DNA from: a virus
Length of the DNA: 29,916 bases
Direction: 5' to 3' (one strand)
Virus record (IMG/VR): IMGVR_UViG_3300022198_005632
Coordinates: 1-29,916 of that record
Position 1 is the stretch's first letter. The number at the start of each line of letters is the position of its first letter. Shown piece by piece: positions 2,263 through 22,118 of this stretch. The notes under the pieces were generated by a model that searched no databases, was not told the origin of the DNA, and was given only the letters and a program-made list of their open reading frames with translations. The translations under genes were made by a program, and so were the position numbers.

Positions 2263-2276
2263 TTAAAGTTTTATGT

Positions 2277-2382: not shown

Positions 2383-2472
2383 AAAAGTGTGACGGTTTGT
2401 TACGGTTTGGCGATCTGAGGCACGGTGTCGCCTTCCTAGGTTCTAGATTGGCGGAGCCAATGCAATCGAGCC

Positions 2473-3153: not shown

Positions 3154-3163
3154 GTATAGTTAA

Positions 3164-3544: not shown

Positions 3545-3551
3545 GATCTTA

Positions 3552-3582
3552 TGGGGTGACAGTACAACTAACTGTTGCCCCA
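3552..3582 (+). terminator. Long hairpin, possible terminator
   Basis: TGGGGTGACAGT (3552-3563) pairs over 12 positions, two of them G-U, with ACTGTTGCCCCA (3571-3582) around a 7-base loop. Only a short T-rich stretch (CTGTTTAT) follows, so termination is likely but not certain. A second inverted repeat begins four bases later. Confidence 0.6.
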
Positions 3583-3585
3583 CTG

Positions 3586-3619
3586 TTTATACCTAACTGT
3601 GGCGTATAGTAGGTATAAA
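3586..3619 (+). repeat. Inverted repeat TTTATACCT/AGGTATAAA
   Basis: A perfect 9-bp inverted repeat (3586-3594 and 3611-3619) with a 16-base loop that contains AACTGTGGCG. ACAGT and ACTGT recur through 3558-3660. The stretch 3545-3804 holds no certain gene. It could be a regulatory or operator region, but I cannot assign a role. Confidence 0.45.
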
Positions 3620-3804
3620 AGACAGTCGAAAAAGTGTCACAGGGACAGTTGACGGATCGCCCATGCCGTGGTAAGGTTGGGCCATGCGTAAAAAAATGGG
3701 TCCCCATAAGCTATAAAGCTATCCACTCGCCTTATAAGTATCAAATACATAAAAAAACAAAAAATACCCCATCCCACAAAAAAATCGCCGCCCATAAGAA
3801 TCTT

Positions 3805-4017
3805 ATGAATAGTTCGAATCTAAAATTAAATCGAAAAACCATTAGACCTAAAAAAATCGCCGCCAGAAAAAATCGCCCCAAACCCCCCACGCCTTATTGG
3901 AATTTTTGGAAAGTTGTATTTGCTGGGTGGCTAATCAGATATCCCAAAACATTTGCAAAGCTTATTGGCATACCAGTTGGCATACTCTTAGTCATGATAT
4001 ATAATGCGGTCAAATAA
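3805..4017 (+). CDS. Small basic membrane protein, 70 aa
   Basis: A very basic N-terminal half (KLNRKTIRPKKIAARKNRPK) is followed by WNFWKVVFAGWLIRYPKTFAK and a hydrophobic helix IGIPVGILLVMIYNAV that fits one membrane span at about residues 50-67. The RYPKTFAK segment resembles small membrane proteins I have seen in cyanophages; function unknown. I chose the ATG at 3805, which follows TCTT like its neighbours at 4025 and 5036. The frame stays open upstream to a GTG at 3634, and a peptide repeat (KKIAAHKN before the ATG, KKIAARKN after it) hints that the longer form may be translated. Confidence 0.6.
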   Translation: MNSSNLKLNRKTIRPKKIAARKNRPKPPTPYWNFWKVVFAGWLIRYPKTFAKLIGIPVGILLVMIYNAVK

Positions 4018-4258: not shown

Positions 4259-5029
4259 ATGGCAAAAGGTTTTACAGTAAAGGCAAAAGCTCCCATTGTA
4301 GAAAATAAAGAAGAATGGGACTACGAAAAAATTAAAGAAAGAATGAGAGGCAAGAGCATTGTGTTCTGTCTACCAGGGCGAGGATGTTCTTTTGCATTCC
4401 TCAAATCATTTGTACAGTTATGTTTTGATCTTGTGCAAAATGGCATGAGCATTCAAATCTCACAAGACTATTCGAGTATGGTAAACTTTGCTCGTTGTAA
4501 GTGTCTTGGGGCAAATGTTCTTCGTGGGCCAAAGCAAATTCCCTGGGACGGAAAACTAAATTATGATTATCAACTCTGGATTGATAGTGATATTGTTTTC
4601 AACAGTGAAAAGTTTTGGCAACTTTGTGATCTAGCTCTTTCAGAAGAAGGAGATGATAGAGAAATTGTTGCTGGTTGGTATGCAACCGAAGATGGGCGCA
4701 CCACATCAGTTGCTCATTGGCTCGAAGAAGAAGAATTCCGTCAGAATGGTGGAGTCATGAATCATGAGACAGTAGAGAGTATCAGCAAGCGTCGGAAACC
4801 ATTTACAGTAGACTATACTGGGTTTGGTTGGGTTATGATTAAGAATGGTGTATTTGAAAATCTAGAATATCCTTGGTTTGCACCCAAGATGCAAGTATTT
4901 GAATCTGGTGCAGTACAAGATATGTGTGGAGAAGATGTTTCATTCTGTCTCGATGCAAAAGAGCAAGGATTTGAGATTTGGTGTGATCCTCGCATTCGTG
5001 TTGGTCATGAAAAGATTCGTGTAATCTGA
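4259..5029 (+). CDS. GT-A fold glycosyltransferase-like protein, 256 aa
   Basis: Probable nucleotide-sugar glycosyltransferase. After an N-terminal strand (GKSIVFCLPGRGCS), the DxD motif sits in LWIDSDIVF (D109, D111), the usual metal/UDP-sugar site of GT-A enzymes. The later GEDVSFCLDAKEQGFEIW (E225, D226) is typical of the catalytic-base loop, followed by a terminal VGHEK (H250). The length suits a minimal GT-A domain, and there is no signal peptide or membrane helix. Related proteins are common in cyanomyoviruses. Acceptor and sugar are unknown; modification of DNA, virion protein or host surface are all possible. It starts a short cluster with the 5036 and 5176 genes, behind a promoter at 4207-4235. 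Confidence 0.8.
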   Translation: MAKGFTVKAKAPIVENKEEWDYEKIKERMRGKSIVFCLPGRGCSFAFLKSFVQLCFDLVQNGMSIQISQDYSSMVNFARCKCLGANVLRGPKQIPWDGKLNYDYQLWIDSDIVFNSEKFWQLCDLALSEEGDDREIVAGWYATEDGRTTSVAHWLEEEEFRQNGGVMNHETVESISKRRKPFTVDYTGFGWVMIKNGVFENLEYPWFAPKMQVFESGAVQDMCGEDVSFCLDAKEQGFEIWCDPRIRVGHEKIRVI

Positions 5030-5544: not shown

Positions 5545-5787
5545 ATGACTAAAAAAATTGATAAAGATCAAAATTATATGAAAGAAATGTGGGGAACATC
5601 ATATCTTGCTAATGAATATGGGTGGGAAAACAAAGTACAGTCGCAAAAAATGCTTCGTGAAATTAATCATGACGATATAACACCAAAAAAGCACGATTTC
5701 CACACTCAAAATGAAATTCATTCCAATATTCGTAATGATGATGACTATGATGATTGGGATTATGGCACAGAACCTCTTTTTGGGTAA
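5545..5787 (+). CDS. Hypothetical protein, 80 aa, upstream of gp25
   Basis: The protein starts MTKKIDKDQNYMKEMWGTSY. It is highly charged, with a central helix-like part and a very acidic C-terminal region (NDDDYDDWDYGTEPLFG). I do not recognise a function. It starts the block that leads into the baseplate genes and has a strong ribosome binding site. Its stop codon overlaps the ATAAATA late-promoter motif of gp25. Confidence 0.75.
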   Translation: MTKKIDKDQNYMKEMWGTSYLANEYGWENKVQSQKMLREINHDDITPKKHDFHTQNEIHSNIRNDDDYDDWDYGTEPLFG

Positions 5788-5793
5788 TAAATA
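5787..5793 (+). promoter_or_regulatory. T4-type late promoter motif ATAAATA before gp25
   Basis: ATAAATA (5787-5793) agrees with the core of the T4 late promoter (TATAAATA). It lies 23 bases ahead of the gp25 start in an AT-rich leader. The same motif precedes the 20535 and 27737 genes. In AT-rich DNA it can occur by chance, so the position just before gene starts is the main support. Confidence 0.5.
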
Positions 5794-5816
5794 AAGATAA
5801 TATTTTAATATTTTTA

Positions 5817-6218
5817 ATGCCACTAGAAAGAGTTAGTAAAGGATTTAAAGATATTAGTATGACATTTAAGGTCAACCCAATCAATTATGATTTGATTGAC
5901 CTTAAAAATCAAACTGCAATCTCTCGCTCTATTCGAAATTTGGTACTCACATCAAATGGAGAACGATTTTTTAATGAAAATCTTGGTTCTAGGGTCAATA
6001 AATTATTGTTTGATGATATGAATTCAATAACTGCTTCAATAATTGAGGATGAAATTAGAACTACAATCGACAACTATGAACCAAGAGTGACTTTAATTTC
6101 AGTTGATGCCACTCCAAACTATGATGATAATGAATTTGAAGTACAAATTACATATCAAATCGTAGGTATTGATGTACCACCACAACAATTATCATTCGCA
6201 CTATTGCCAACAAGATAA
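5817..6218 (+). CDS. 25: Baseplate wedge subunit gp25
   Basis: Homologue of T4 gp25, the small wedge protein (GPW/gp25 family, lysozyme-like fold without activity) that joins the wedge to the inner baseplate and shares features with sheath initiators. The 133-aa length matches T4 gp25 (132 aa). The hallmark YEPR is at residues 87-90, with the preceding helix TASIIEDEIRTTIDN and the following VDATPNYDDNEFEVQITYQI as in the family. I chose the ATG at 5817: a longer frame to 5754 would overlap the previous gene and adds 21 residues not seen in the family. The stop is directly followed by the gp6 start. Confidence 0.95.
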   Translation: MPLERVSKGFKDISMTFKVNPINYDLIDLKNQTAISRSIRNLVLTSNGERFFNENLGSRVNKLLFDDMNSITASIIEDEIRTTIDNYEPRVTLISVDATPNYDDNEFEVQITYQIVGIDVPPQQLSFALLPTR

Positions 6219-8135
6219 ATGTCTCTAGTAAATTTTACTAATTTAGATTTCGATCAAATTAAAATATCAATTAAAGATTATTTGAGGTCAAATTCCAATT
6301 TTACCGATTATGATTTTGAAGGATCGAACTTATCCACAATAATTGACATTTTAGCATATAATACTTACATATCATCATATAATGCAAATATGGTGAGTAA
6401 CGAAGTATTCATCGATTCTGCAACATTAAGAGAAAATGTTGTGTCATTGGCAAAGAACATTGGATATATACCCAAATCTAGAACTTCAGCGAAATCTAAT
6501 ATAACCTTTTTCGTAAATGTATCAAATTCTTCAATAAATTCTAATTTTTTGACCTTAAAAAAAGGAATTGTCTGCACTTCGCCAAATACAATATCAGGTC
6601 AAGGATTTACATTCTGTGTATTGGATGATATCACAGTACCTGTTATTGATAACATCGCTATATTTGAAAATATAGACATTTATGAAGGAACTTACATTAC
6701 AACTAGCTTCACTGCAAATCCATTTGATCCAAATCAAAGATTTATTTTAAATAATGCCAATATAGACACATCTACTATTAAAGTTGATGTCAGAGATACA
6801 CAAGAAAGTTCAACAAAAAGACCTTTTGTTCACACTGATAACTTATCTGAGGCAAAATCTACTTCAAGAGTTTACTTTTTACAAGAAGTAGAAGATGAAA
6901 GATATGAGATCTTATTTGGTGATGGCGTTTTTGGGAGAAAATTGGAAGTTGGAAATTACATAGAGGTCTCTTACTTGATATCGAGTGGATCTGAAGCAAA
7001 TAGAATTGGGACATTTAACTTTGTTGGAAAAATTCTAGATGACTCGGATAGAATTTTACAAGGAGATTTTTCATTAGTTACCGTGAATTCAGTTTCCGAT
7101 TATGGACAAGAAAAAGAGTCAATAAGTTCAATAAAAAAATATGCCCCAAGAGTATATTCTGCGTATAACAGAGCAGTAACTAACTCAGATTATGAATCTA
7201 TTGTGACTAAAATATATCCGGAAGCAGAGTCAGTGACCGCATATGGTGGAGAAGAATTGGATCCACCACAATATGGTAAAGTTTTTATTGCAATTAAGCC
7301 AAGATATGGTGCAACATTTCTTTCAAGTACAATAAAAAGAAATATTTTAAATGATTTAAAAAAATATAGCGTGGCTGGGATCTTACCTGAAATTATAGAT
7401 TTGAAATATCTTTATGTTGAAACTGAATCTGATGTATATTATGATAAAAACCTAACCTCGAATGTTAATGATATTTCTACCTCCATATTACAAAATATAA
7501 AAGATTATTCAAGATCAAAAGATTTGAATCAATATGGAGCAAGATTTAAGTATAGCAAATATCAAAAATTAATTGATGAGACAAATGAAGCTATTACATC
7601 TAATATAACTAGAGTTTCTATCAGACGAGATCTTCTTGTTTCTTTAAACCAACCAGCAACATATGAGATTTGTTTTGGTAATGCATTTTTTGTCAGAGAC
7701 TGTGATGGATATAATATACAGACATCTGGATTTAAAATAAATGATTTTGTCGATACAGTATACATTTCAGATATACCAATCGAACCCAATAATACACAGG
7801 GAGAATTGGTTTTAATTAAATTGGTCTCGGGCGTTAGTCCACAAATAATACGAAGAAATATTGGAACTATCGATTATGATAAAGGTGAAATTAATATCAA
7901 TGCAATCAATATTACTTCAACCACAAAAACTTTTGGTGGAAATCCTATAGTGGAAATTTCTGCGACACCAAGGTCAAATGATGTGATAGGTTTACAGGAT
8001 TTATATTTGCAACTAGATAATAATGCGATCACCATAAACATGGTTTCAGACACAATATCTTCTGGTGAATCAATTTCTGGATCATCTTATACATCATCAT
8101 CAAGCTACAAAGAAAATAACATAGTAAGAAAGTAA
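6219..8135 (+). CDS. 6: Baseplate wedge subunit gp6
   Basis: Homologue of T4 gp6, which with gp7 forms the wedge core and builds the iris around the hub. The length, 638 aa, is close to T4 gp6 (660 aa). The N-terminal region (NFTNLDFDQIKISIKDYLRS, IIDILAYNTYISSYNANM) and the region at about residues 317-355 with NRAVTNSDYESIVTKIYPEA and DPPQYGKVFIAIKP are typical of gp6 and baseplate J-like proteins. The C terminus (about 600-638) is Ser-rich and probably flexible. It starts directly after gp25 without a gap, and its stop codon shares one base with the next start, so the three wedge genes are translationally linked. Confidence 0.95.
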   Translation: MSLVNFTNLDFDQIKISIKDYLRSNSNFTDYDFEGSNLSTIIDILAYNTYISSYNANMVSNEVFIDSATLRENVVSLAKNIGYIPKSRTSAKSNITFFVNVSNSSINSNFLTLKKGIVCTSPNTISGQGFTFCVLDDITVPVIDNIAIFENIDIYEGTYITTSFTANPFDPNQRFILNNANIDTSTIKVDVRDTQESSTKRPFVHTDNLSEAKSTSRVYFLQEVEDERYEILFGDGVFGRKLEVGNYIEVSYLISSGSEANRIGTFNFVGKILDDSDRILQGDFSLVTVNSVSDYGQEKESISSIKKYAPRVYSAYNRAVTNSDYESIVTKIYPEAESVTAYGGEELDPPQYGKVFIAIKPRYGATFLSSTIKRNILNDLKKYSVAGILPEIIDLKYLYVETESDVYYDKNLTSNVNDISTSILQNIKDYSRSKDLNQYGARFKYSKYQKLIDETNEAITSNITRVSIRRDLLVSLNQPATYEICFGNAFFVRDCDGYNIQTSGFKINDFVDTVYISDIPIEPNNTQGELVLIKLVSGVSPQIIRRNIGTIDYDKGEININAINITSTTKTFGGNPIVEISATPRSNDVIGLQDLYLQLDNNAITINMVSDTISSGESISGSSYTSSSSYKENNIVRK

Positions 8136-11100
8136 TGATTAAGAAAAGAGTTAAAATATCATCTATTGTTGAGAATCAACTTCCTTCATTTGTTAGAGAA
8201 GAATATCCTCTAATCTCAACATTTCTTAGTCAATATTATAAATCCTTGGATGGACAGGGTTCAACATATGACATACTTCAAAATATTGATCAATATGTCA
8301 AATTAGATAGTGTAACAAATTTAATTGAATCGACTGCCACTACTACGATAGTAGAGTTTGGATCAATAAACATTAGTGTATATTCTACTAATGGTTTCCC
8401 AGATAATAATGGAATAATTCAGATTGATGATGAAATCATTTTATATGAAAGTAAAAATGAGGAGCAATTTTTAAATTGCACTAGAGGTTTTAGTGGAATA
8501 ACAGATTATAAAAGTACGAATAAACCAGAAGAATTAACATTTTCTACTTCATCTATCCAATCACATGCAGTTGGATCGACGGTATTAAATCTTAGTGTTT
8601 TATTTTTAAAAGAATTTTTTGCCAAGATAAAGAAGCAAATATTACCTGGATTTGAAGATCAATCACTATATTCCGATTTAGACCAAAATATTAAGCTAAA
8701 TGAAGAAAATTTTATCATAAGATCAAAAGATTTTTATTCATCAAAAGGAACTGATAGTTCATTTGAAATTTTGTTTAAATCTTTATATGGGGATCCTGCT
8801 ACCGTAATAAAACCGAGAGATTTTTTAATTCGTCCATCAGATTCTGAGTATAAAATAACTAAGGATATTGTAGTAGAATCCATCACAGGAAATCCAGAAG
8901 ACTTGTATAATCGTACTTTGTTCCAGAATCAAGGACAAGGATTAACTGAAACTTTTGCTAGTGTGACTAATGTAGAAGAAATCATAAGAAATGGAAAAAC
9001 TTATTATGTTTTAAGTTTAGATTTTGATTATGATAAAGATATTAGTGTAAGAGGTTCTATATTTGGCGACTTTGCTATTCACCCAAAAACAAAAGCATTA
9101 GATTATGTCGAATCTGGGGCAACACAAATTATTGTTGATTCTACTATTGGTTTCCCAGATAGTGGTGATCTAACTATCAAAAGTATTTCTGGAAATGATT
9201 TAATAGTATCGTATACATCTAAGAATTTAAATCAATTTACTGGTTGTACTGGAATAATAGAAGATATAAGTTTATCAGAAGATGTGAATCTCAATGTTTA
9301 TGCATATTCTATTCTTAATGAGGAAGAAATTAAAGTCAGAATATTAGGTGCGATAAAAGACATAGAATTACCAAATAACAGTAAATATATTGAGCCAGGT
9401 GACATAATAAGTTTTGATACTTTGGGCAAAGTATATGATTCCCCAAAATATACGCAATGGTTAGTTAGTGTACCGAATACTTACAATGTATCTAGATTCG
9501 AATCAGTATCTGATGATCAAATTGAAATTTTCACATACGATAAAAATTTAATCAATATTTTTGATTTAATTTATATTGAATTTTTTGATTCTCAACTAGA
9601 AGAAGTAAGAGAAGAGCTCTTTGAAGTAATTTCAGTAGCTCAAAATGGCAATTCAATCTTTGTTAAAAATCAATATCAGATAGAAAAAATATATCATATA
9701 AGAACTGCTATTAAAAAATATGTCAACTCTGAAGATGATATTATTACTAGTAATGTACAAAATGTTTATGTAGATGAGTCTAATGATCAATATATTGCAT
9801 CTCAAAGTATTCCCGATTATATTGATCAAAATATAGAAAAAATAGATTTTTCTATCAATTTCTTTGGTATTTTTGAAGATATTGAGAATGCAAAAGAAGG
9901 AATATCATCAGAAGTAAACAATGAGCAATTTGAGTTAAATATCAATCAAATTCACGATTTTAAAACTGGTGACTCTGTATATTATGTGCAAAATGCCTCC
10001 CAATACACTTTGAATGATGGTACAACTATCAATTTAAATTTATACGATGGGCTAGTCGAAAGGCAACTATATTATGTCGAATCAACATCAGATACTAAAA
10101 TAAAATTATATAAAAGTAGATCAAATATCTATTTTAAAAGATATAATCCTATAAAATACAATAGATTGTATTCCAATATCAATCTAAATGAAGTAACTTA
10201 TACCAATTCTGAAAAAATAGATTTATTATCGAAAACATATTTTCTACAATCTAATGAATTTGTTTTATTGTTTGACTCAGACAATAATATTGAGGTTTGG
10301 TATTACAATTATACATCAAACACATGGGAAAAAATAGATTATTCTATTACAGCAAAATTGTATAAGAGCAATTATATAGAAGAAAATACCAAAAAGCCAT
10401 TAAAAGCAACAAATTTAATCAAAAAAATATCCCCACCTACTACTCCAATCTCGGACCTTGAGGATACTCCGAATGGAACAACAGGAATTTTAGTAAATGG
10501 AGTAGAAATATTAAATTATAAATCTGAAGATTTTGTGTATTATGGTGAGATAGAAAAAATAGATATAGTATCTGCTGGAAAAGAATATGATGTAATAAAT
10601 TTACCAACATTAGAAATTTCCGATTTATCTTCGACTAAATCTTGTACTGCACATTTAGAAATTACAGGAACTTTACAAAAAGTTGATGTAATAGACGGTG
10701 GATTTGACATATTAGAAGAGCCCAGCATAAAGATTTTGGGCGGCAACGGAAGAGATGCAGAACTCAAGGCAAATTTGATTAATTTTAGGCATACAGTTGA
10801 TTTAAATCCGACTGCAACTTTTGTAAATTTATCTGACAATACGATTGCATTTTCCACTTACCATAAATTTAGAGATACCGAAGAGGTAGTATATAAAACT
10901 AATGGTAATAGAGCTTTAGGTGGAATTTCGACTCTTTCGAGTTATTTTGTGACCGTTCAAGATGATGTAACTATAAAACTACATGAAACGAAACAAGATG
11001 CTTTAGATGGGATTGAAATTAATTTAACATCTTATGGCGATGGTGGCCAAGAATTAGAATCAAAGGAAGATAAGAGAAAAATATCATCTATAACAATATT

Positions 11101-14100
11101 AAATCCTGGTCAAGGATATAAAAATAACTATGTTTCAGTATCTCCTACTGGAATTAGCACATATACAAATGAAATTATTGCCAAAAATCACGGATATGAG
11201 GATGGAGATATAGTTACATACACTTGTACCGGGAGTTATCCAGAAGGATTGTCGCAGTCAAAATATTATGTTACTAAAGTAAATGAAGATAGATTCAAAT
11301 TATCAGAAATTGGTGTTGGATTGACATCAAAAGATTTTTATTTCAATACAAATCAATATGTCAATATAGCTAGTTCTGGCATTGGCACCCATATATTCCA
11401 ACACGAGCCAATATCACTAGAAGTATCGGCAAAAATTGGAATATCTTCATATTCTAAAGATTTATTTTACCCTGTCATTTCTCCGATTTTTAGGGGAGAA
11501 ATAACAAATGTGTATGTGGAAGATGGGGGAATTGGATATGGTAGCTCAGAAATTTTAAACTATGAGAGGCAACCAGTTTTTACAATAAAAAGCGGACAAA
11601 ATGCTCAATTAATTGCCAATGTATTAAATGGAGTAATAAAAGATGTATATGTTATAAATGGTGGAACAGATTACAATTCCATTCCAGAGTTTTCCATTAG
11701 AGGTACTGGAACTGGTGCGTTATTATCACCAGTAATAGAAAATGGAGTATTCAAAGATGTTATAGTTGTGAATGGGGGATCTGGATATGAACAAAAAAAT
11801 ACTGTAATTGAAATAATTAATTTTGGTCAGGGTGCTAGATTTAATGCAAAAATAAAATCATGGAACATAAATTTAACAAATAGAATATTGAATTCAAACA
11901 ATTTAATATCAAATGATGATGGAATCTTGTATTCGAATTTACCAAATTCTCTAAAATATTCCCATTTATACTGTCCGAATCAACTCAGAAAAAAAATATA
12001 TTCATCTTTTATTGATGAGTTTGGAAATAAGATAAGAAGAATTGACTATGATAATAGTATTTCTGCCGTAAAATATCACTCTCCCATAATAGGTTGGGCG
12101 TATGACGGAAATCCAATATATGGCCCATATGGATATTCATCTCCAAATTCTGTTAGTTCCATCAAAAAAATTAGATCTGGATATGTATTATCGCCATTAG
12201 AAAATAGACCCCCAGAAATTATTAATAATCTGGTAGTATTTCCATATGGAATTTTTATAGAAGATTATAAATTTACTGGAGATGGCGATCTAGACGAATG
12301 TAATGGAAGATTTTGCGTTACACCAGAGTATCCAAACGGTGTATATGCATATTTTTGCACTGTATCAAATGAAGATGATTTTGTACCGCAATTCCCATAC
12401 TTCATCGGAAATAAGTATAGATCGACTAAAATTTTAACTAATTTTGACCCAGAAGTGAATCAAAATACATTTAATTTTGGTCAAGGTAATATCATTAGAA
12501 ATACTTATTATTATGCACTAAAGCAAGAAAACTCAACATATGATTTCCTATTAAATCCATCAAAAGATACTACTCAAGATTCTAAAGTATCCTCTGTAGA
12601 ATATTCCAATTTAAGTAGTATTGGTATACTGACTTCTGGACAAAATTATAAAGTTGGCGATGTAATAAATTTCGATTCGGAAGGAACAAATGGATATGAT
12701 GTGAGTGCTGTTGTTGGTTCTGTAGGTGGTAAAATCGTACAAACTATAGAAAATGTTTCATATGTTACAAAAGATGTCGAATTATATAATTCAACATCAA
12801 ATATAGGCATATGTACTTCTCCACACCAACTTAATGATCTAGATTACATTAATCTCATTGAAAATTTTGGAGTAAATTCAAGCACATTCATACAAGTTGG
12901 AATCAGTTCTCAGACATTAATTCTCGTGGATGATGTAGCTGATACTACAACTACTGGAATTGTAACCGATTTTGAAGTAAATGGAAATTTAAGTTTTCCA
13001 TCTATCATGGAAAATGATTATTATAAATTGGAAGACGAAGTTATTAAAATACTACAAGTGCGACCGGAAGATTCTAAAATAAAAGTATTAAGATCAGTAT
13101 CTGGACCATCTCACCTAAAAACATCTACCTTAGTTGAACTGACTAGAAAATTTACATTTGAGGAAAATCTAACATACAATCCTGGTAATATTAACCGAGA
13201 ATATTATTTTGATCCAATAAAAAATGTTGGTTTTGGCACAACATCTGGGTCAATTGTAGAGGTAAATTATACTGGTATAGGTGATACTACTCTATACATC
13301 CCACCAGGAAATTTTTATCTACCAAAACACAATTTACAAACAAATACACCTTTAGTTTATTCCGAAAATGGCGGAAATCCAATAATAGTATCAAATGGAT
13401 CTAGTATTTTTGATTTAAATTCCATAGATTCACTATATGCAATAAAAACATCCAATGATTTTATTGGGATATCTAGTAATAAAGTTGCAATAGGTACAGA
13501 TGGAAATTATATTGGAATTGGAACTACTACATCATCTTTGTATATAACTGATTTTGGCGCAGGCGTATATCATAGTTTTAGAACTAACTATGAAAATGTA
13601 TTAAAATTCAATGCCATAAAAAATACTATAAATGTTTCCACGGCATCTACCCATGGTTTGTTGGTTGGAGATGATATATCAATTGCAGTTAAATCTGGAA
13701 TCACTACAAGTATAAAAATAAAGTACAATGATTACAACAGGAGAATTATATTTAATGAAAAATACTTCACTAATGTTGATATTATAGACAATATTTTTAC
13801 TTTAACCGATCATGGGTATAATAATGGCCAAGAATTGTTATATGTTTCCGATTCTTCTCCATCAGAATTGAAAGATAATCAAATTTATTATATACTCAAA
13901 ATAGATAATGATAGATTTAAATTAGCAGAAACATCATATGATTGCCTATACTTAAAAAAAGAGATAGATTTCACATATTCTTTTTCTGGATATTTCTATG
14001 AATTGAATTCAAATATTATTATCAGAAAAAACCAAAAAGTAATTTTTGATTTATCTGATTCATCTTTATCTTTTATTGATGAATTTATAACTAAATCGGC

Positions 14101-16018
14101 ATTCGATTTTAAATTATATTATGACAAAAATTTCAATAAAGAATATTATTTTGATTCGGATGGTGAAATAAATGTCACTAAATTTGGAAATATTGGAATT
14201 GATTTAAATTCTAGATTAGAATTGCAGGTGAGTGATGGTACTCCAAATGAATTGTATTACAATTTAATTCCCGTATCCAATATTAATTTGCCAATCGAAA
14301 AGGAAGAGATTTTAGTTGATACATCAATTTATAATTTCAATAAAATAACAATATCTGAAAGTCTTTATTCTGGGAACTATAATATCATTAAAGTCGAACC
14401 AAATTCTTTTTCATACCAAACAAAAAAAATAATAGAAAATTTAAATTATAATTCAAATAATTCTAATTTAAACTATAATACAATATCAAAAACAGCATTT
14501 GGCCCTATAACTTCAATAAATCTAATATCTGGGGGCAATTATTATTCTAAATTGCCTGGAATAACCTCTATAACCAGTTCTAGTGGATATGATGCGGTCT
14601 TATATCCAATAAGTAATCGTGTTGGAAAAATAAAATCAACTAAATTAGAAGATATTGGATATGGGTATTCAGTTGACCCAACAGTTAGACCAACAATAAA
14701 ATTACCGAATGTATTTCGAGTAGAGCCTTTTTCGACAATAGATGAGATAAAAACAACATTTAAAGGAAAATTTTATAATTATTCGCCGAATTTGATAGTA
14801 TTGGACCCAATAACCAAGGAGATACAGGATGTAATTCTCGATTATGATTATTCTACTGGAATTGTACAAATAATTAAAAATTCTAACGGATTTAATAATG
14901 TAGAGCCTCAGATTATACCAGTAAATAATTCAAATGGTATTGGAATAAGTTCAATAACATATGATCCAATACTCAAACAAGCTACAGCAAAATTAAATTA
15001 TAATTTCACAAATCCAGATACATTTCCAGTACAATTATTTGATGAGATTTATGTGGAGAATACTTCTATAATTGAAAATAGTCCAGATTTTAATTCTGAT
15101 GGTGGACTATATAAGGGATTCAACTCAAGTGAGTATGATTATTCTACATTCAATGTAGTTGGACTCAGTACAGCAATAGAAGATCAAAAAGCATACATAA
15201 TTTTTTATGTTGGCGATGTATTGGATCCAATTTTTGAAATTGGTACTTTTGATATAGAGCTTTCTAGGGGGAGTGTAGTTCCACTTAAAAATACTCCAAC
15301 ATTTGAAGTTAAAATTAAGAAAAATTCATATATTGTTGGAGAAATAGTAGAATCTAATGGTAGTATTGGACAAGTAAGTAGTTGGGACCCAAAAACCAAC
15401 TACATTAAAATAAAAACTACCCAGACCTTTGATGAAAAATCAAATCTTATCGGAAAAACAAGCGCATCTTTAGGACAAATAGTTGAAGTTATAGATTTGA
15501 GTGGGAGCTATAATATAGACTATTATTCAATAAGAAATAAGGGGTGGAAGACTCAAACTGGATTCTTAAATGTAAATAGCCAAAGAATAGCTGACAATGA
15601 TTATTATCAATACTTCTCATACTCTATAAAATCTAGGGTTCCAATTGATAAGTGGGAAAGTGCTGTCAGTGCATTAAACCATACATCTGGATTCAAGAAA
15701 TTTAGTGATTTTTCAGTCGAATCGGAGTCTCCAGATTCTTCTGCAATGAATCAAGATCAAAATGAAGGAAATTTCACTGGAGTATCAGATCTAAATAGCA
15801 TTATAGATTTGGAAACAACCTATGATTTTGATTTGGCTCTAGAAGAAAATGTATTTACATTAAATAGAGAATTAGTTTCAGACGAAATAACATTAAATTC
15901 AACAATATTACAAGACTATTCGCAATCAGTTGGGAATCGAGTTTTAGTAATAGATGATATAAGTGGCGAGTTTAATACAAATCGAAAATCAACTTTTGTA
16001 ACAGCAATAGATATTTAA
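8135..16018 (+). CDS. 7: Giant gp7-like baseplate wedge protein, 2627 aa, with repeat modules and YHYH domain
   Basis: Located where T4 has gene 7. Residues about 10-50 (FVREEYPLISTFLSQYYKSL) and R196-G205 (RSKDFYSSKG, then SFEILFKSLYGD) resemble the C-terminal third of T4 gp7 as I remember it; I2498-W2507 (IKSRVPIDKW) matches its late IKS-x-x-P segment. Between these lie about 2,200 residues of beta-rich sequence: two GFP-type modules (about 86 and 338), many HG-type modules (about 605, 908, 1017, 1730, 1838, 1892) and GxGY-type modules (about 811-853, 989, 1128-1215, 1499, 2130, 2172). A YHYH-type domain spans about 1313-1415: GWAYDGNPIYGPYGY, then LDECNGRFCVTPEYPNG and YAYF (1404-1407). 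T4 gp7 has 1032 aa, so this is about 2.5 times longer. The gp7 assignment is position plus partial similarity. Confidence 0.8.
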   Translation: MIKKRVKISSIVENQLPSFVREEYPLISTFLSQYYKSLDGQGSTYDILQNIDQYVKLDSVTNLIESTATTTIVEFGSINISVYSTNGFPDNNGIIQIDDEIILYESKNEEQFLNCTRGFSGITDYKSTNKPEELTFSTSSIQSHAVGSTVLNLSVLFLKEFFAKIKKQILPGFEDQSLYSDLDQNIKLNEENFIIRSKDFYSSKGTDSSFEILFKSLYGDPATVIKPRDFLIRPSDSEYKITKDIVVESITGNPEDLYNRTLFQNQGQGLTETFASVTNVEEIIRNGKTYYVLSLDFDYDKDISVRGSIFGDFAIHPKTKALDYVESGATQIIVDSTIGFPDSGDLTIKSISGNDLIVSYTSKNLNQFTGCTGIIEDISLSEDVNLNVYAYSILNEEEIKVRILGAIKDIELPNNSKYIEPGDIISFDTLGKVYDSPKYTQWLVSVPNTYNVSRFESVSDDQIEIFTYDKNLINIFDLIYIEFFDSQLEEVREELFEVISVAQNGNSIFVKNQYQIEKIYHIRTAIKKYVNSEDDIITSNVQNVYVDESNDQYIASQSIPDYIDQNIEKIDFSINFFGIFEDIENAKEGISSEVNNEQFELNINQIHDFKTGDSVYYVQNASQYTLNDGTTINLNLYDGLVERQLYYVESTSDTKIKLYKSRSNIYFKRYNPIKYNRLYSNINLNEVTYTNSEKIDLLSKTYFLQSNEFVLLFDSDNNIEVWYYNYTSNTWEKIDYSITAKLYKSNYIEENTKKPLKATNLIKKISPPTTPISDLEDTPNGTTGILVNGVEILNYKSEDFVYYGEIEKIDIVSAGKEYDVINLPTLEISDLSSTKSCTAHLEITGTLQKVDVIDGGFDILEEPSIKILGGNGRDAELKANLINFRHTVDLNPTATFVNLSDNTIAFSTYHKFRDTEEVVYKTNGNRALGGISTLSSYFVTVQDDVTIKLHETKQDALDGIEINLTSYGDGGQELESKEDKRKISSITILNPGQGYKNNYVSVSPTGISTYTNEIIAKNHGYEDGDIVTYTCTGSYPEGLSQSKYYVTKVNEDRFKLSEIGVGLTSKDFYFNTNQYVNIASSGIGTHIFQHEPISLEVSAKIGISSYSKDLFYPVISPIFRGEITNVYVEDGGIGYGSSEILNYERQPVFTIKSGQNAQLIANVLNGVIKDVYVINGGTDYNSIPEFSIRGTGTGALLSPVIENGVFKDVIVVNGGSGYEQKNTVIEIINFGQGARFNAKIKSWNINLTNRILNSNNLISNDDGILYSNLPNSLKYSHLYCPNQLRKKIYSSFIDEFGNKIRRIDYDNSISAVKYHSPIIGWAYDGNPIYGPYGYSSPNSVSSIKKIRSGYVLSPLENRPPEIINNLVVFPYGIFIEDYKFTGDGDLDECNGRFCVTPEYPNGVYAYFCTVSNEDDFVPQFPYFIGNKYRSTKILTNFDPEVNQNTFNFGQGNIIRNTYYYALKQENSTYDFLLNPSKDTTQDSKVSSVEYSNLSSIGILTSGQNYKVGDVINFDSEGTNGYDVSAVVGSVGGKIVQTIENVSYVTKDVELYNSTSNIGICTSPHQLNDLDYINLIENFGVNSSTFIQVGISSQTLILVDDVADTTTTGIVTDFEVNGNLSFPSIMENDYYKLEDEVIKILQVRPEDSKIKVLRSVSGPSHLKTSTLVELTRKFTFEENLTYNPGNINREYYFDPIKNVGFGTTSGSIVEVNYTGIGDTTLYIPPGNFYLPKHNLQTNTPLVYSENGGNPIIVSNGSSIFDLNSIDSLYAIKTSNDFIGISSNKVAIGTDGNYIGIGTTTSSLYITDFGAGVYHSFRTNYENVLKFNAIKNTINVSTASTHGLLVGDDISIAVKSGITTSIKIKYNDYNRRIIFNEKYFTNVDIIDNIFTLTDHGYNNGQELLYVSDSSPSELKDNQIYYILKIDNDRFKLAETSYDCLYLKKEIDFTYSFSGYFYELNSNIIIRKNQKVIFDLSDSSLSFIDEFITKSAFDFKLYYDKNFNKEYYFDSDGEINVTKFGNIGIDLNSRLELQVSDGTPNELYYNLIPVSNINLPIEKEEILVDTSIYNFNKITISESLYSGNYNIIKVEPNSFSYQTKKIIENLNYNSNNSNLNYNTISKTAFGPITSINLISGGNYYSKLPGITSITSSSGYDAVLYPISNRVGKIKSTKLEDIGYGYSVDPTVRPTIKLPNVFRVEPFSTIDEIKTTFKGKFYNYSPNLIVLDPITKEIQDVILDYDYSTGIVQIIKNSNGFNNVEPQIIPVNNSNGIGISSITYDPILKQATAKLNYNFTNPDTFPVQLFDEIYVENTSIIENSPDFNSDGGLYKGFNSSEYDYSTFNVVGLSTAIEDQKAYIIFYVGDVLDPIFEIGTFDIELSRGSVVPLKNTPTFEVKIKKNSYIVGEIVESNGSIGQVSSWDPKTNYIKIKTTQTFDEKSNLIGKTSASLGQIVEVIDLSGSYNIDYYSIRNKGWKTQTGFLNVNSQRIADNDYYQYFSYSIKSRVPIDKWESAVSALNHTSGFKKFSDFSVESESPDSSAMNQDQNEGNFTGVSDLNSIIDLETTYDFDLALEENVFTLNRELVSDEITLNSTILQDYSQSVGNRVLVIDDISGEFNTNRKSTFVTAIDI

Positions 16019-16022: not shown

Positions 16023-19000
16023 ATGGCAAAAACAAGAGCCCTAAAGTTATTTTTAACAGTACAGAATGAAATAGACACTCAGATAGTTCAATCTTCAATT
16101 TTAACTGTAATAAATGATGGCTCTATAACAATTGAAAATGACTATGCTAAATTATACGCTACAGAAGAAATTGGAAACTATCAAATAAATATAGTTTCTG
16201 ATCAGGCTGTTCTTGAATTTTTCCCAGTAGATGGAAAAATAAACGATTATTCATATGGTTATGTGTATTATGACACTAAAAAATTCATAAATGAAACTTC
16301 TTCTATTGACATTAGTGATAGTATCAGCATCATAACATTCAATAGCCAAATTTCTGCTGGAACTACGACAAATATAGTCACATTACCAGAAAAATTTAGT
16401 TCTTCGAAATTAATCGTAGAAATATCAGGAGAAGATGATACTTTTGAATTTGTTGAATTTGTTATAACTTCAGACAAAAATGGTAATGTGTATGGAGCAG
16501 AATATGGGAGATTGAATATAAATTTGGATTCTGCAGTTGGTATTGGATCTTATAATTTATATAAAGTTGGAGAAAATATAAAATTAGATTTTTTTGCATT
16601 TGATGAAACTGTAAACTATACTTCTAATGTAGTTTCTGTCGCTTTAGCTAAAACTGAGTTTTCTGGTTTTGGCAGAAGTCAGTTGAGATTTGGCGAATTG
16701 ACAAGTAATAAAACTACAATTCCCGCATCTGGGTCCCCAACATTAACTACTATAGTGGAGCACTCTCTAGATTATCAATCTGCATATTATTTGATTCAAG
16801 TTAATGATTTAACAAACAATAGAATTGATTTTTCTGAGTTATACACTCTGAATAATTTAACTGAATCTTTTGGTGTATTGTATGGTAAAGTTGTATCCGA
16901 GTTCAATTTAGGGGAATTTGATATTAATACTTCAGGTAAATTTGAAGTCTTTTTTACCCCAATTCCAGACATCGATGTAGAAGTATTGGTTTTCCAACAG
17001 ACTATAGGATTTACTCAATTTTCTGACTCTCCTTCTGTGATTGATCTATCTAACTCGCAAATAGTAAATGCAGTAAGTAAAGTTGGTGTAAATGATGAGA
17101 ATAATAATAGAACAAATTTCAATTTAACGCATAAAGATTTGCCTATATTTGAAAGAGCTTTCGATGCAACTGATCCATTTAATTTAAACCTAGATCTGGA
17201 TTACATTTATTTGCCAAATCACTTCTTTGTGACAGGAGAAAAAGTATTATACAGATCACAACAATTTGACAAAATATCAACTGAAAAATCTATAGGAATT
17301 GGAACTACATCTATTGCTGGGATTGGACTTACAGATAAACTTCCATCGGAAGTATATGTTTATAAATTTGATGCTGCTAGAATTGGATTGTGTTCTAGTC
17401 CTGGGGATGCGCTAGCTATTCCTCCAAAATTATTTGATTTTACTTCATTAGGAATAGATGAATTACATTATATCACATCTACCGATCAAAATTCTAAAGC
17501 GATAATTGCCATAGACAATACAATACAATCACCAATAATACCAACACCAATAACTACAACATTGATTTCTGATGTAGTATTATCGGATACTAGAATAGTT
17601 TTTTCTGGTATAACTTCATTTTTTAGTGGAGATCTTATAAAAATTAACAATGAAATTATGAAGATAGAGTCTGTGGGAGTTGGGAGTACTGGAAATGTTG
17701 ATGTTATAAGACCTAAGCTTGGAACTGGAATATCTTCCCATTATTCTGGAGATACAGTAACAAAGATAAATGGGAATTATAATATTGTAGATAATGTCAT
17801 TCACTTTTCCGAAGCTCCATATGGTCCATTCCCAGAAGAACCAGAATTTGAAGACTCAAATTCCACTTCATTATTGACTTTAGCAAAATCTAGGTTCCAA
17901 GGAAGAACATTTATAAGATCTGCAAACCCAGATTTTATTGAAGATACTTATAATAGAAACTATATTTTCGATGAACTATCTTATGAATTTGACTCAATTA
18001 AAGATACATTTGAACTAAAACGGTCTGGAGTCGCAATAACTGGAATTTCAAATAATATCCCTTTAATTTTTATCAATAATATTTTCCAAAATCCAAGTGA
18101 AGACTATACAATAAATGATCTTGGAGTAAATACAGAATTGCAATTTGTTGGCACAGAAACTACAATTACATACGACCCAAATATCTTTAATATACCTAGA
18201 GGTGGTGTAATAGTATCTGTTGGATCAAGTTCTGGTCTCGGATATCAACCATTAGTTTGTGCGGGTGGAACTTCTATAGTTTCTATAGCTGGAACTATAG
18301 AAGGAATAAGTATTGGGAATAGTGGATCTGGATACAGAGAAAATTATCAAATAGTCAAGGTTGGGGTCCAAACATATAATTCCAATTCTTCGGTGGATTA
18401 TATTGGAACTGCCAATATACAAAATGGAAATGTGGTAGGTATTGCAATAACAAATGTGGGTTTTGGATATACTGCATTTCAATCAGTATACACCACATTG
18501 ACTAGCAATGAAATATCAATAGGAACTACTGAGATATTTTTATACGATATCTCAAAGATACCAGAAACAAATGGTATTATAGAAATTGATTCAATATTAA
18601 ATAATGTTCCAATCGTTGGGATAGGGACATCTTCTATATTCATTTCTACTTCAGATTCTCCAACATCAACAATATTTGCTGATAGTCAAGTTACAATAAA
18701 AGAATATAATCCACCGGTTGTCGTTTTTGATGAACCTTTATCATATTCGGATATACCATTGACATATTTAAATGGATCTGGAATAGGAACAGAGGCTAAA
18801 GTTGACATTGTTGTTGGTCAGGGATCTAGTGTAATCGATTTCCAGATCAAAAACTTTGGTTATAATTATACAATTAATGACATATTGACCTTACCGATAA
18901 CTGGCAATATAGGGATTCCAACTACACCAGAATATACACCCTTTACAATAAATGTAACTCAAATCTTTAATGATTCATTCTCAGGTTGGACAGTTGGTAG

Positions 19001-20513
19001 CCTTAGACTATTAGATGATATATCATATCTAATTAGTAATAGAAGAAGAACATTTCCTTTGATGTATCAAGGAAACAGATTCTCGATTGTTGCAAAAAGA
19101 GGATCTAATATTGATGTGCAAGCAACTCTTTTAGTCTTTATAAATGATATATTACAGCAACCAGGCGAAGGTTATATATTTAATGGGGGAAGTACTATTA
19201 CATTTACTGAGCCTCTAAAGAGATATCCAAATGGAAATACTGATAAAGTAAAAATTATATTTTATAGAGGAACTGAGGGCATAGATGTTGTTGATGTTGA
19301 TATACTAGAAACTATAAAAATAGGTGATGTAGTTAAACTCAATGGCGATTTATATGAATACCAACAAGATCCAAGGATAGTTCAGGATATTCCAACAGTT
19401 GATATAGTTGAAACGAATTTATATAAAGGGAAAGGAATATATGATAATCCAGATTTATTGAGACCATTAGTTTGGACAAGACAAAAAGATGATATTTTTA
19501 TCGATGGGGCAGTAGTCACAAAAGATAGAACAATATATGAGCCCTCTATATTCCCCACAACAGGATTAATAAAAAGTGTTGGAATAGGATCCACACAAAT
19601 ATTTGTACAAAATGTAAAAACTTATTTTGATAATGAAAATGAAGATAATCTCACTGATCTGAGAAATACAGTTGAGATTATATCACAAGAAAATTTAGTT
19701 TCTGCCGCAGCAACTGCGATAATAGGAATTGATGGTGAAATTGCATCTATTGATATAATAAACCAAGGAGATGGATATTCGCAAGCTCCTAAAGTTTATG
19801 TACAAAGTCCTGTTGGTGTTGGATCTACTGCAATCATAACTTCAAATGTATTGGATAGTAAAATTTCATCATTTAATATAATTGGAGTTGGCTCTGGGTA
19901 TAGTACATTTAATCCTCCACTAATTTTTATAGAACCACCAACTCCAAAAGTTGAAGTAATAGAAAGTGTCAATTATAGTGGAGATTTTGGTATTATTAGT
20001 GGAATAGCGTTCACTTCAATTCCTGGTATTGCCCAGACCGGACTAGTTTTAGATTTATTGATTCCAATGGAATCCGAACTTAGAAATTTAAGTTCTCCAA
20101 TAATAACAAGTGGAATACAATCTGGATATTATTTTGAAATCAATAATAGTAACATAGGAAATAGCTTAGATTCACTTTCTTCCGATGGGAGTGTAATTGG
20201 AATTGGCACAACTTCAATTGATAATATCTATGAGGCAGCTTTTGTATCAATTGCGCAAACTAGTGTATATGGAATAGGAATTACAGATGTGGCTAAAGTT
20301 GTAATTAGTGTAGATAACTATAATGGAATTTCTGGACTTGGATTTAGTAATTACTACGGAAATTACAATTGGGGACTAATTCAATTTGAAGTGAAGGCAA
20401 GGAAAAATCCAAATGAATTTATTGTAAATAAAGAAAATGGAGTTGTTGGATTAAATAGTATGCCAATTGTTAGAAGAAAAGCTCCATTAAAATATTTTAA
20501 TTACTTAACATAA
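16023..20513 (+). CDS. Large repeat-rich virion protein, 1496 aa, between gp7 and gp8
   Basis: Not recognised as any T4 protein. It starts MAKTRALKLFLTVQNEIDTQ with a beta-rich N terminus (about 1-250). It carries GxGY-type modules at about 763, 810, 942, 1242 and 1285 (for example SIGNSGSGY, INQGDGY, IGVGSGY) and a GFP-type module near 521. Many IGIGTTS-like segments suggest repeated beta turns. The last residues (SMPIVRRKAPLKYFNYLT) form a distinct basic tail. Size, module content and position four bases after the gp7-like gene indicate a structural protein of the baseplate or short tail fibres. T4 has no gene between 7 and 8, so this is a cyanophage-type insertion. Confidence 0.75.
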   Translation: MAKTRALKLFLTVQNEIDTQIVQSSILTVINDGSITIENDYAKLYATEEIGNYQINIVSDQAVLEFFPVDGKINDYSYGYVYYDTKKFINETSSIDISDSISIITFNSQISAGTTTNIVTLPEKFSSSKLIVEISGEDDTFEFVEFVITSDKNGNVYGAEYGRLNINLDSAVGIGSYNLYKVGENIKLDFFAFDETVNYTSNVVSVALAKTEFSGFGRSQLRFGELTSNKTTIPASGSPTLTTIVEHSLDYQSAYYLIQVNDLTNNRIDFSELYTLNNLTESFGVLYGKVVSEFNLGEFDINTSGKFEVFFTPIPDIDVEVLVFQQTIGFTQFSDSPSVIDLSNSQIVNAVSKVGVNDENNNRTNFNLTHKDLPIFERAFDATDPFNLNLDLDYIYLPNHFFVTGEKVLYRSQQFDKISTEKSIGIGTTSIAGIGLTDKLPSEVYVYKFDAARIGLCSSPGDALAIPPKLFDFTSLGIDELHYITSTDQNSKAIIAIDNTIQSPIIPTPITTTLISDVVLSDTRIVFSGITSFFSGDLIKINNEIMKIESVGVGSTGNVDVIRPKLGTGISSHYSGDTVTKINGNYNIVDNVIHFSEAPYGPFPEEPEFEDSNSTSLLTLAKSRFQGRTFIRSANPDFIEDTYNRNYIFDELSYEFDSIKDTFELKRSGVAITGISNNIPLIFINNIFQNPSEDYTINDLGVNTELQFVGTETTITYDPNIFNIPRGGVIVSVGSSSGLGYQPLVCAGGTSIVSIAGTIEGISIGNSGSGYRENYQIVKVGVQTYNSNSSVDYIGTANIQNGNVVGIAITNVGFGYTAFQSVYTTLTSNEISIGTTEIFLYDISKIPETNGIIEIDSILNNVPIVGIGTSSIFISTSDSPTSTIFADSQVTIKEYNPPVVVFDEPLSYSDIPLTYLNGSGIGTEAKVDIVVGQGSSVIDFQIKNFGYNYTINDILTLPITGNIGIPTTPEYTPFTINVTQIFNDSFSGWTVGSLRLLDDISYLISNRRRTFPLMYQGNRFSIVAKRGSNIDVQATLLVFINDILQQPGEGYIFNGGSTITFTEPLKRYPNGNTDKVKIIFYRGTEGIDVVDVDILETIKIGDVVKLNGDLYEYQQDPRIVQDIPTVDIVETNLYKGKGIYDNPDLLRPLVWTRQKDDIFIDGAVVTKDRTIYEPSIFPTTGLIKSVGIGSTQIFVQNVKTYFDNENEDNLTDLRNTVEIISQENLVSAAATAIIGIDGEIASIDIINQGDGYSQAPKVYVQSPVGVGSTAIITSNVLDSKISSFNIIGVGSGYSTFNPPLIFIEPPTPKVEVIESVNYSGDFGIISGIAFTSIPGIAQTGLVLDLLIPMESELRNLSSPIITSGIQSGYYFEINNSNIGNSLDSLSSDGSVIGIGTTSIDNIYEAAFVSIAQTSVYGIGITDVAKVVISVDNYNGISGLGFSNYYGNYNWGLIQFEVKARKNPNEFIVNKENGVVGLNSMPIVRRKAPLKYFNYLT

Positions 20514-20534: not shown

Positions 20535-22118
20535 ATGTCAGCAATTATAACTGATCAGATTAGAATTTTAAATTCAAAGAATTTTATAAATTCATTAAAA
20601 TCTGGAGAAGCAAATTTATATACATTCGTTGGTTTACCAAATGCAAGCGAATATGATAATAACTGGGATGTAAATTCCCCATCACCAAAAGATTCATTTG
20701 ATGATGAAAACGATTATTGGGATACGATAATCTCTTTGAAAAAAATAAATCCAGATAGAGATATAAAAAATGTAATCAATAAGGTTCTATGGGAATCTGG
20801 TACTACCTATGATATGTATAGGCATGACATAACCAGAAATAATCTATCAAAACCTTCACAAAAAACTAGTTTATATAAGTCAAATTACTATATTCTAACA
20901 AAAAATTATAAAGTTTACATTTGCTTAAACAATTCCGCATCTCCCGACAACAACTTTGAAGGAATTCCATCATTAATTGAGCCAGATTTTATAGATTTGG
21001 AACCAAAAACAACGGAAGATGGATATACATGGAAATATCTCTATACATTAAAAATTGAAGATATAATAAAATTTGATTCTATTAATTTTATTCCCGTTCC
21101 GTCTGATTGGGAAACCTCTACAGAATATGAATCAATTAGATTGAATGCTTCTACTAGTGGACAAATTAAAGTGGTATCCATTACAAATTTTGGTGAAAAT
21201 TTGGGATCCCCCAAAGTTTATTCTGATATACCAATTTTAGGCGATGGTCAAGGAGCTAAAGTAAGTATAGTTGTTGGTAACGATGAAAAAATAACATCTA
21301 TTTTTGTCACCCAAGGTGGTAGCGGATATACATATGGGACTGTAGATACATCAACAATTTCTTTTCCATCTAATGCAGTTTTACCAAAATTTGATGTAAT
21401 CATTCCCCCAAAAGGTGGACATGGTTATGATATATATCGAGAATTGGGAGCATATAATTTATTAATATATTCTAGATTTGAGAATGACCAGACCAATCCA
21501 GATTTTATAACTGGAAATCAAATTGCTAGAATTGGAATAGTAAATAATCCATTAGTGTTCGATTCTGATAGTATACTCACAAAAGAAAGAGCAAGTGCGG
21601 TTTCCGCACTAAAATTAGTAGGGAAAAATGAATTAGATGCTTATAAGAGTGCATCCATTGAACCAGATGCCATTATCACACAAACAATCGGAGTCGGTAT
21701 AACTGCTGTAGGTAGAGTGGTATCATATGACAGTAGAACTGGAGTGTTAAAATATTGGCAAGATAGATCTTTATACGGATTCAATCTAAATGGAGAATAT
21801 AATGAAAATAGAACCAGAAAAAATGAAAATGTTTCCACATATGGCAATGAAAAAATAGCATTTACTTCTGATATTTTGACAGGTGGCTCATTGGATATTA
21901 TTGGATTTTCTGATGCATTACAAATAGATTCATCTTATACCGGTATAACAACAGTAATAAATAATGTTACTTATAATTTAGGACAGCAGTTTACTTCTGG
22001 GACATCCAATCCTGAAGTAAAACCGAATTCTGGAGATATAATTTATGTTGATAATAGACCATCTATAACTAGGTCTCCAAATCAAAAAGAAGATGTTAAA
22101 GTAATCTTACAATTTTAA
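20535..22118 (+). CDS. 8: Baseplate wedge subunit gp8
   Basis: Homologue of T4 gp8, a dimeric wedge protein. The N-terminal ITDQIRILNSKNFINSL and YTFVGLPNASEY, the middle EDGYTWKYLYTLKIED (about 160-175) and the C-terminal GDIIYVDNRPSITRSPNQ with DVKVILQF correspond to T4 gp8 (there GEMIYMENRPPIIMA and EINILFTF). At 527 aa it is much longer than T4 gp8 (334 aa). A good part of the excess is beta sequence around residue 259 with VTQGGSGYTYG, a module also found in the neighbouring large proteins. The ATG at 20535 follows ACTAGGTAA, a weak ribosome binding site. Confidence 0.92.
   Translation: MSAIITDQIRILNSKNFINSLKSGEANLYTFVGLPNASEYDNNWDVNSPSPKDSFDDENDYWDTIISLKKINPDRDIKNVINKVLWESGTTYDMYRHDITRNNLSKPSQKTSLYKSNYYILTKNYKVYICLNNSASPDNNFEGIPSLIEPDFIDLEPKTTEDGYTWKYLYTLKIEDIIKFDSINFIPVPSDWETSTEYESIRLNASTSGQIKVVSITNFGENLGSPKVYSDIPILGDGQGAKVSIVVGNDEKITSIFVTQGGSGYTYGTVDTSTISFPSNAVLPKFDVIIPPKGGHGYDIYRELGAYNLLIYSRFENDQTNPDFITGNQIARIGIVNNPLVFDSDSILTKERASAVSALKLVGKNELDAYKSASIEPDAIITQTIGVGITAVGRVVSYDSRTGVLKYWQDRSLYGFNLNGEYNENRTRKNENVSTYGNEKIAFTSDILTGGSLDIIGFSDALQIDSSYTGITTVINNVTYNLGQQFTSGTSNPEVKPNSGDIIYVDNRPSITRSPNQKEDVKVILQF

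Follow-up and report, generated by a model that had tools for sequence, protein, structure and literature searches.

A gp7 wedge core divided by about 2,220 residues of beta-rich modules in a T4-like baseplate operon of cyanophage type

In bacteriophage T4, the peripheral material of the baseplate wedge protein gp7 sits at its N-terminus, and the core comprises residues ~640 onward (Pfam domains). Domains of T4 gp7 contact gp9 and gp10 (PMC3004832). In structures from T4, XM1 and T6SS, the protein known as gp7 (gp17 in phage XM1, TssG) is the single-copy partner of two copies of gp6 (XM1 gp16, TssF), with which it forms a helical bundle and a trifurcation (PMC10457771, PMC6300606). In Vibrio phage XM1, the 242-aa gp17 has the gp7 role in the (gp16)2-gp17 wedge, and its loop 80-106 and its C-terminus 201-242 each hold one set of six tail spikes, so that both an internal loop and the C-terminus carry peripheral structures (PMC10457771). 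According to a 2020 survey, pelagi- and cyanomyophages lack T4 gp7 and have VrlC in its stead (PMC7029224), and gp7 has been listed in the non-cyanophage core only (PMC3037559). A protein of this class is present in virions: S-CREM2 ORF122, assigned to the class by its position between gp6-like and gp8-like wedge genes, was found in virions with 91 unique peptides (PMC10665884), and the annotation of the S-SCSM1 gp7 gene carries a 'virion protein' note. No Kyanoviridae baseplate structure surfaced in the literature searched.

The window analyzed here is the whole of a 29.9-kb IMG/VR fragment (29,916 nucleotides). A T4-like baseplate operon begins ~5.7 kb into it, on the + strand, with the gene order gp25-gp6-gp7-gp8 that is expected around a (gp6)2-gp7 wedge subunit; the longer order gp25-gp6-gp7-gp8-VrlC is kept in the window and its relatives. 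The 2,627-aa ORF between gp6 and the next ORF is very probably the gp7 of a cyanophage-type T4-like phage, with a split core, an insert at one loop and added parts that would form peripheral arms. The features are as follows.

5754..6218, + strand: gp25-like baseplate wedge subunit, gene order anchor (Pfam GPW_gp25 1.7e-14, PHROG 261)
6219..8135, + strand: gp6, which joins gp7 to make up the (gp6)2-gp7 wedge module (Pfam Gp6-like_1st 5.8e-16, PHROG 219 6.9e-193)
8135..16018, + strand: first part of gp7, 2,627 aa, with core piece 1, insert and core piece 2 (single open ORF)
8135..8326, + strand: gp7 core piece 1a, residues 1-64, N-terminal helical hairpin, equivalent to T4 gp7 ~647-690 (alignment via the minimal gp7 L128; Pfam Baseplate_wedge 1.2e-5)
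8327..8614, + strand: small beta domain within core piece 1, residues ~65-160, ~95 residues (gap relative to L128)
8615..8842, + strand: gp7 core piece 1b, residues ~161-236, helices with the FYSSKGTDSSFEILFKSLY motif, equivalent to T4 gp7 ~700-763 (hhalign, core HMMs)
8843..15502, + strand: gp7 insert, residues ~237-2456, ~2,220 residues of beta-rich modules (boundaries from core HMMs and L128 alignment)
8843..9094, + strand: domain that opens the insert, residues ~237-320, related to T4 gp7 ~766-814, the Pfam Gp7_5th region (hhalign columns)
12062..12367, + strand: YHYH domain in the insert, residues 1310-1411 (Pfam PF14240 1.5e-25)
15503..15757, + strand: gp7 core piece 2, residues ~2457-2541, QRIADNDYYQYFSYSIKS...HTSGFKKF, equivalent to T4 gp7 ~846-900 (hhalign, core HMMs)
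15758..16018, + strand: linker 3' of the core, ending ...RVLVIDDISGEFN...FVTAIDI-stop (junction alignment)
16023..20513, + strand: second ORF of 1,496 aa, which in relatives forms the C-terminal end of gp7 (homology to the relatives' single gene)
20535..22118, + strand: gp8 baseplate wedge subunit, gene order anchor (Pfam Phage-Gp8 1.3e-8, PHROG 438)
22134-27716 and 27737-29914 (running to the window end): VrlC-like gene (DUF4815, PHROG 358) as two ORFs (profile match)

The flanks of the operon have features of their own. Positions 1-4000 of the window have a GC content of 47-48%, against ~30% downstream, and hold few long ORFs. At ~1690-2005, a short match to a cyanophage hypothetical gene (T4-GC 637) agrees with what has been reported for cyanophages, namely a variable gene region upstream of gp25. 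Directly upstream of gp25, positions 4259-5029 encode a 256-aa ORF (PHROG 1574, weakly like phage glycosyltransferases), and in P-SSM2 and S-SM2 an uncharacterized gene of ~250 aa (T4-GC 102) lies close to the equivalent place. At the other end, the VrlC-like gene is a single gene of ~2,520 aa in Bellamy and two ORFs in the window, cut at matching profile positions 1405/1421. A (CCAGCTCCACCAAAA)4 repeat coding for a proline-rich stretch lies at 27615-27677, directly before this split; a scan for relatives sharing the split found none.

The 2,627-aa protein is matched by 470 phage records, 92 over at least 80% of its length, all at less than 60% identity, and the closest annotated ones belong to the Kyanoviridae. 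The giant gp7 of this family (PHROG 2885; 4,067 aa in Bellamy, 4,156 aa in S-SM2, 5,195 aa in P-SSM2) is colinear with it over the full length and has an insert of the same size, with identity of 29-37%; for Bellamy, S-SM2, S-SCSM1 and P-TIM68, coverage is 91-100% at 33-38% identity. It is one gene in the Kyanoviridae, whereas the window has two consecutive genes. T4 gp7 (PDB 5IV5/5HX2; PHROG 964) has both core segments in the same order and the same operon place between gp6 and gp8. It differs in having ~80 residues at the insertion site (Pfam Gp7_5th), compared with ~2,220 in the window, and ~640 peripheral N-terminal residues that are absent from the window protein, while the window adds ~1,500 residues after the core. 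Compact gp7 proteins (Stenotrophomonas phage Yut3, 503 aa; Xanthomonas phage X1, 498 aa; L128, 291 aa; Pfam Baseplate_wedge PF23786) share the core pieces and gene order of the window but have inserts of 33-270 residues and lack the giant C-terminal part.

Several lines of comparison place the T4 gp7 wedge core in two pieces of the 2,627-aa ORF, at residues ~1-236 and ~2457-2541, with ~2,200 residues between them. The core HMMs, trained on T4-like, compact and cyanophage gp7 with the window, T4 and other cyanophages among the training rows, matched residues 181-231 at 4e-23 and residues 2474-2532 at 2e-28. Because the window and T4 are among those rows, the independent tests by hhalign and by intermediates weigh more. 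An alignment of ten cyanophage N-termini was homologous to seven Straboviridae gp7 proteins (hhalign Prob 96, E 1.3e-9; 4e-8 in an earlier run), best over window residues ~193-296 and T4 gp7 ~727-814, and when searched against the whole PDB it returned gp7 chains at the top (1.5e-5 and 2e-4). The FYxSKGxxxSxxxLFKxLY helix region is thereby homologous to T4 gp7 ~725-760 (hhalign E 1.3e-9; PDB 1.5e-5). Residues 9-56 match Pfam Baseplate_wedge at 1.2e-5, just under the curated cut-off; with this match and the minimal gp7, which aligns from T4 residue 646, the N-terminal hairpin of the core bundle (T4 ~647-690) is also present. The C-terminal piece aligns to T4 gp7 directly in a weak but colinear manner (hhalign Prob 29, E 5.8e-4) and to Yut3 gp7 at 1.2e-7 (blastp, small sequence set). 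The segment equivalent to T4 ~846-900 is recognized chiefly through the minimal gp7 (E 1.2e-13).

This minimal protein, encoded on contig L128 within the order gp6-gp7-gp8-VrlC, has 291 aa and aligns to T4 gp7 646-906 (E 5e-8). It also aligns to window residues 9-242 (E 4e-9) and ~2465-2541 (Prob 98, E 1.2e-13) with nothing left between, and ~2,220 window residues fall between its residues 128/129. Since L128 matches both pieces end to end, the insertion point is placed to within a few residues. Both segments are likewise present in the compact gp7 (466-503 aa) of Yut3 and IMG/VR contigs L103 and L104. A profile of 13 compact and intermediate proteins found T4 gp7 first in the PDB (2.8e-10), colinear at T4 647-759 and 862-911. 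Less sensitive searches gave little: a phmmer search of the PDB with the complete 2,627-aa sequence returned chance matches only and profiles of the ends were needed, tblastn of T4 gp7 against cyanophages reached only E ~9, a Pfam scan of the whole protein found only YHYH, and the profile of the C-terminal core retrieved no gp7 from the PDB.

A preliminary description of this sequence had proposed gp7-like segments at residues ~10-240 and ~2490-2530 separated by ~2,200 residues; both the segments (by core HMMs, hhalign and L128) and the separation were borne out to within ~30 residues. The profile-profile comparison it had suggested for the ends came out in its favor, at E 1.3e-9 for the N-terminal end and at 5.8e-4 directly, and strongly via L128, for the C-terminal end. 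It was also correct that the T4-specific N-terminal two thirds are missing: T4 gp7 residues 1-640, with the T4-type peripheral domains, have no counterpart in the 2,627-aa protein (hhalign P 0.35). The same domains are missing from the compact gp7 proteins found, and they are therefore a trait of T4-like gp7 and not of the wedge core. The ~95-residue beta insertion in the N-terminal piece and the downstream ORF, which belongs to the same protein in relatives, had not been described.

Structure models were compared with these alignments. A model of the compact L104 gp7 from a 43-row alignment had a mean pLDDT of 76 and a pTM of 0.55, with a poor N-terminal hairpin (low pLDDT), as might be expected without the gp6 partners. 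When this model was searched with Foldseek against 350,542 PDB chains, the first three matches were T4-type gp7 (E 0.02-0.05, prob 0.54-0.85, low TM-scores), and the model's matches in BFVD included baseplate wedge subunits, wedge initiators from T4-like phages among them. As predicted structure, the model is supportive of the gp7 identity and not decisive. The two ends of the window protein would fold together as one core. Window residues 320-1500 were modelled as almost all beta (pLDDT 77, pTM 0.68), which supports the earlier view of the middle region as an insert of beta-rich modules; a Foldseek search of the PDB with this model gave no convincing match.

The spacing between the two core pieces, measured with the core HMMs, forms a graded series. 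It is 33 residues in L128-L131, 79-81 in T4-like phages, 262-270 in the Yut3/L104 type, 442 in Rhizobium LG08, 535-628 in L116-L127, 1,334 in L113/L114, 1,867-2,433 in Kyanoviridae (2,243 in the window) and 2,807 in S-CAM22. Values of ~530 in the 1,016-aa protein of HTVC008M, ~1,090 in the 1,454 aa of S-CRM01, ~2,350 in the 4,446 aa of P-HM1 and ~2,720 in the 6,378 aa of S-RIM2 were also obtained. Within the Kyanoviridae the length of the insert is nearly constant, mostly ~2,140-2,350 residues. By BLAST, the inserts of different phage groups have few modules in common, and growth at this site may therefore have occurred more than once. A second, smaller insertion site lies in the N-terminal piece, with ~95 residues in the window and ~570 in S-CAM22, where the N-terminal core motif is found at position 691; this insertion is absent from T4 and compact gp7. 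No profile homology was detected between any part of the 2,627-aa protein and gp9, gp10, gp11, gp12, gp53, gp6 or gp8, and a hhalign self-comparison for internal repeats gave nothing usable. In the compact gp7 of L104 (L104:2454-3854), the insert module at residues ~263-335 is similar, in sequence profile and in fold, to gp18 domain I of the T4 sheath, a building block common to sheath and baseplate.

The window gp7 is very probably the subunit present once in the (gp6)2-gp7 wedge module, and by homology its core would dock with gp25 and a pair of gp6 molecules in all six wedges. The conserved core consists of the N-terminal helical hairpin with the FYxSKGT helix, together with the DxxYYQxFSYxIKS...HxxGF segment. 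The ~2,220 residues of beta domains are inserted into this core at a loop that the smallest gp7 spans with just a few residues, and a further modular part of ~1,500 residues, a separate gene in the window, follows it. The two sites of enlargement in cyanophages, one in the internal loop that follows the FYxSKGT helix and one beyond the core, look like the same two places as the spike-holding loop and C-terminus of XM1 gp17, and for this reason peripheral arms or an outer ring are proposed. The comparison is with the published description of XM1; the XM1 spikes are bound non-covalently, whereas the modules of the window protein are built in. The core most likely works as in an ordinary wedge, and what has been added to it would form peripheral arms or an outer ring. 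By analogy with XM1 gp17, the insert and the C-terminal part may be arms at the baseplate periphery that contact fibres or the host.

A different role for the insert has a real though lesser chance of being correct, namely structural padding that widens the baseplate, its modules packing on gp6, gp8, the VrlC-like protein and the sheath as an extra ring. The conserved insert length within the Kyanoviridae, the giant VrlC-like gene next door and the gp18-like module of a compact gp7 are all consistent with padding. In T4, domain I of gp18 lies on the outer face of the sheath. A module of that kind also fits an exposed position.

A host-binding insert, by which gp7 itself would be a covalent multi-domain adhesin doing the work of gp9-gp12 with two arms per wedge, is unlikely. 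In its favor, both the insert and the C-terminal part vary and are built from beta-rich modules, the two XM1 gp17 sites that hold spikes are an internal loop and the C-terminus, and the YHYH domain in the insert is listed among domains linked to host recognition (PMC7029224). It is also in its favor that no cyanophage homologue of gp11 surfaced; from sequence comparison the Kyanoviridae seem to be without a recognizable gp11, and their rim differs from T4's. A marginal cyanophage match was obtained with gp9. Against an adhesin, neither gp9-gp12 nor any receptor-binding protein is similar to the added parts, and the near-constant insert length of the Kyanoviridae suits a structural role better than a fast-changing adhesin. 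Moreover, cyanophages have a gene with the N-terminal segment of gp10, ~60 residues and the only part that Kyanoviridae share, which is annotated as a tail-fibre connector. The preliminary description had suggested that the giant structure replaces gp9-gp11 or the short tail fibres. This found no support, as neither ORF has profile similarity to T4 gp9, gp10, gp11 or gp12, and replacement of rim proteins is accordingly a conjecture. A wider proposal, also doubtful, is that the internal loop of gp7 is a general grafting point, used independently for 33 to ~2,800 residues, that the cyanophage arms took over the rim functions of gp9-gp12, and that the second arm was freed as a gene of its own in the window lineage.

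In Bellamy, S-SM2, S-SCSM1 and P-TIM68, the sequence of the 1,496-aa ORF continues gp7 within one gene. As the next ORF is the C-terminal third of the same protein and is fused to it in most relatives, the window has a genuine gene split. Of the IMG/VR contigs, 76 were informative on this junction: 70 have an uninterrupted reading frame there and six have a stop where the window has one. The six split contigs have an ATG 3-8 nt after the stop that opens an ORF of ~1,425-1,500 aa, their intergenic DNA differs, and they share a derived end with the window (FVTAIDI-stop in the window, FVTSFNI or FITSFEI in the others). The single polypeptide with ~1,500 C-terminal residues that is typical of PHROG 2885 is thus not made by the window or these contigs. 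Two-gene forms are also found in the freshwater phage DSL-LC02 (complete genome; 2,514 + 1,432 aa), split just after the core as in the window, and in Synechococcus phage B23 (2,845 + 1,081 aa), where the split site does not match and lies ~310 residues further on. On the core-region tree the split requires two changes of state, and DSL-LC02 may for that reason have split separately from the window lineage; the strongly supported branches are compatible with one origin. A sequencing or assembly error in a single 4,100-aa gene, as the one ORF of most relatives and of 70 of the 76 contigs might suggest, is hardly credible given six independent contigs with a stop and new ATG at the same place, differing spacer DNA and a common derived C-terminus, and a complete DSL-LC02 genome that is split there too. 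Chance and frameshift origins of the downstream ORF were rejected on the six-contig evidence.

The core HMMs are specific to gp7: among 490 ORFs, which included gp6, gp8 and VrlC-like proteins, either HMM matched gp7 genes only. The tested gp6 and VrlC proteins gave no match even at E 10, and the full gp7 profile did not match T4 gp6. A fusion of two unrelated genes whose ends are gp7-like by chance or by paralogy with gp6, for which the helix-turn-helix hairpin shared by known gp6 and gp7 structures (PMC10457771) and the weak T4 match of the C-terminal piece might be cited, is extremely improbable in view of this specificity and of a minimal 291-aa protein that has both pieces contiguous in an unchanged gene order. 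PHROG gives these proteins the labels 'head and packaging' or 'head closure Hc2', which were rejected as identities; such labels appear to stem from modules held in common or from the N-terminus of gp7. VrlC (DUF4815, PHROG 358) was rejected as a substitute for gp7 or carrier of its core, there being no gp7 core in VrlC at E 10. In HTVC008M and cyanophages, the core pieces are found in the gene between gp6 and gp8 and not in VrlC, which contradicts the statement that gp7 is absent from these phages (PMC7029224).

Among relatives, many of these genes are annotated gp7 or 'baseplate wedge initiator' (gp7 in P-SSM2 and S-SM2) and others 'structural' or 'hypothetical' protein. The gene is already called gp7 in many cyanophages, so the identity itself is not new. 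No description of the split-core layout or of the insertion-site series was found in the open-licence literature; what is added, within a known gene family, is the exact layout of the protein, the series of insert sizes and a gene split specific to the lineage. The 1,016-aa gp7 of Pelagibacter phage HTVC008M (L134:8001-11051), which has both core pieces, bears the label 'head closure Hc2', an apparent misannotation via PHROG 3465, and that of S-RIM2 (L136:17162-36298), with both core pieces present, is a 6,378-aa 'hypothetical protein'.

Few viruses are as abundant as cyanophages and pelagiphages. With the gp7 core placed exactly and its insertion point given at residue level, the annotations of the HTVC008M 'head closure Hc2' and the S-RIM2 'hypothetical protein' can be corrected to gp7. 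For cryo-EM of a Kyanoviridae baseplate, the prediction is a core at the wedge from which arms depart at two points, one loop and the C-terminus. The graded sizes of the insert make gp7 a good case for the growth of large virion proteins at one site.
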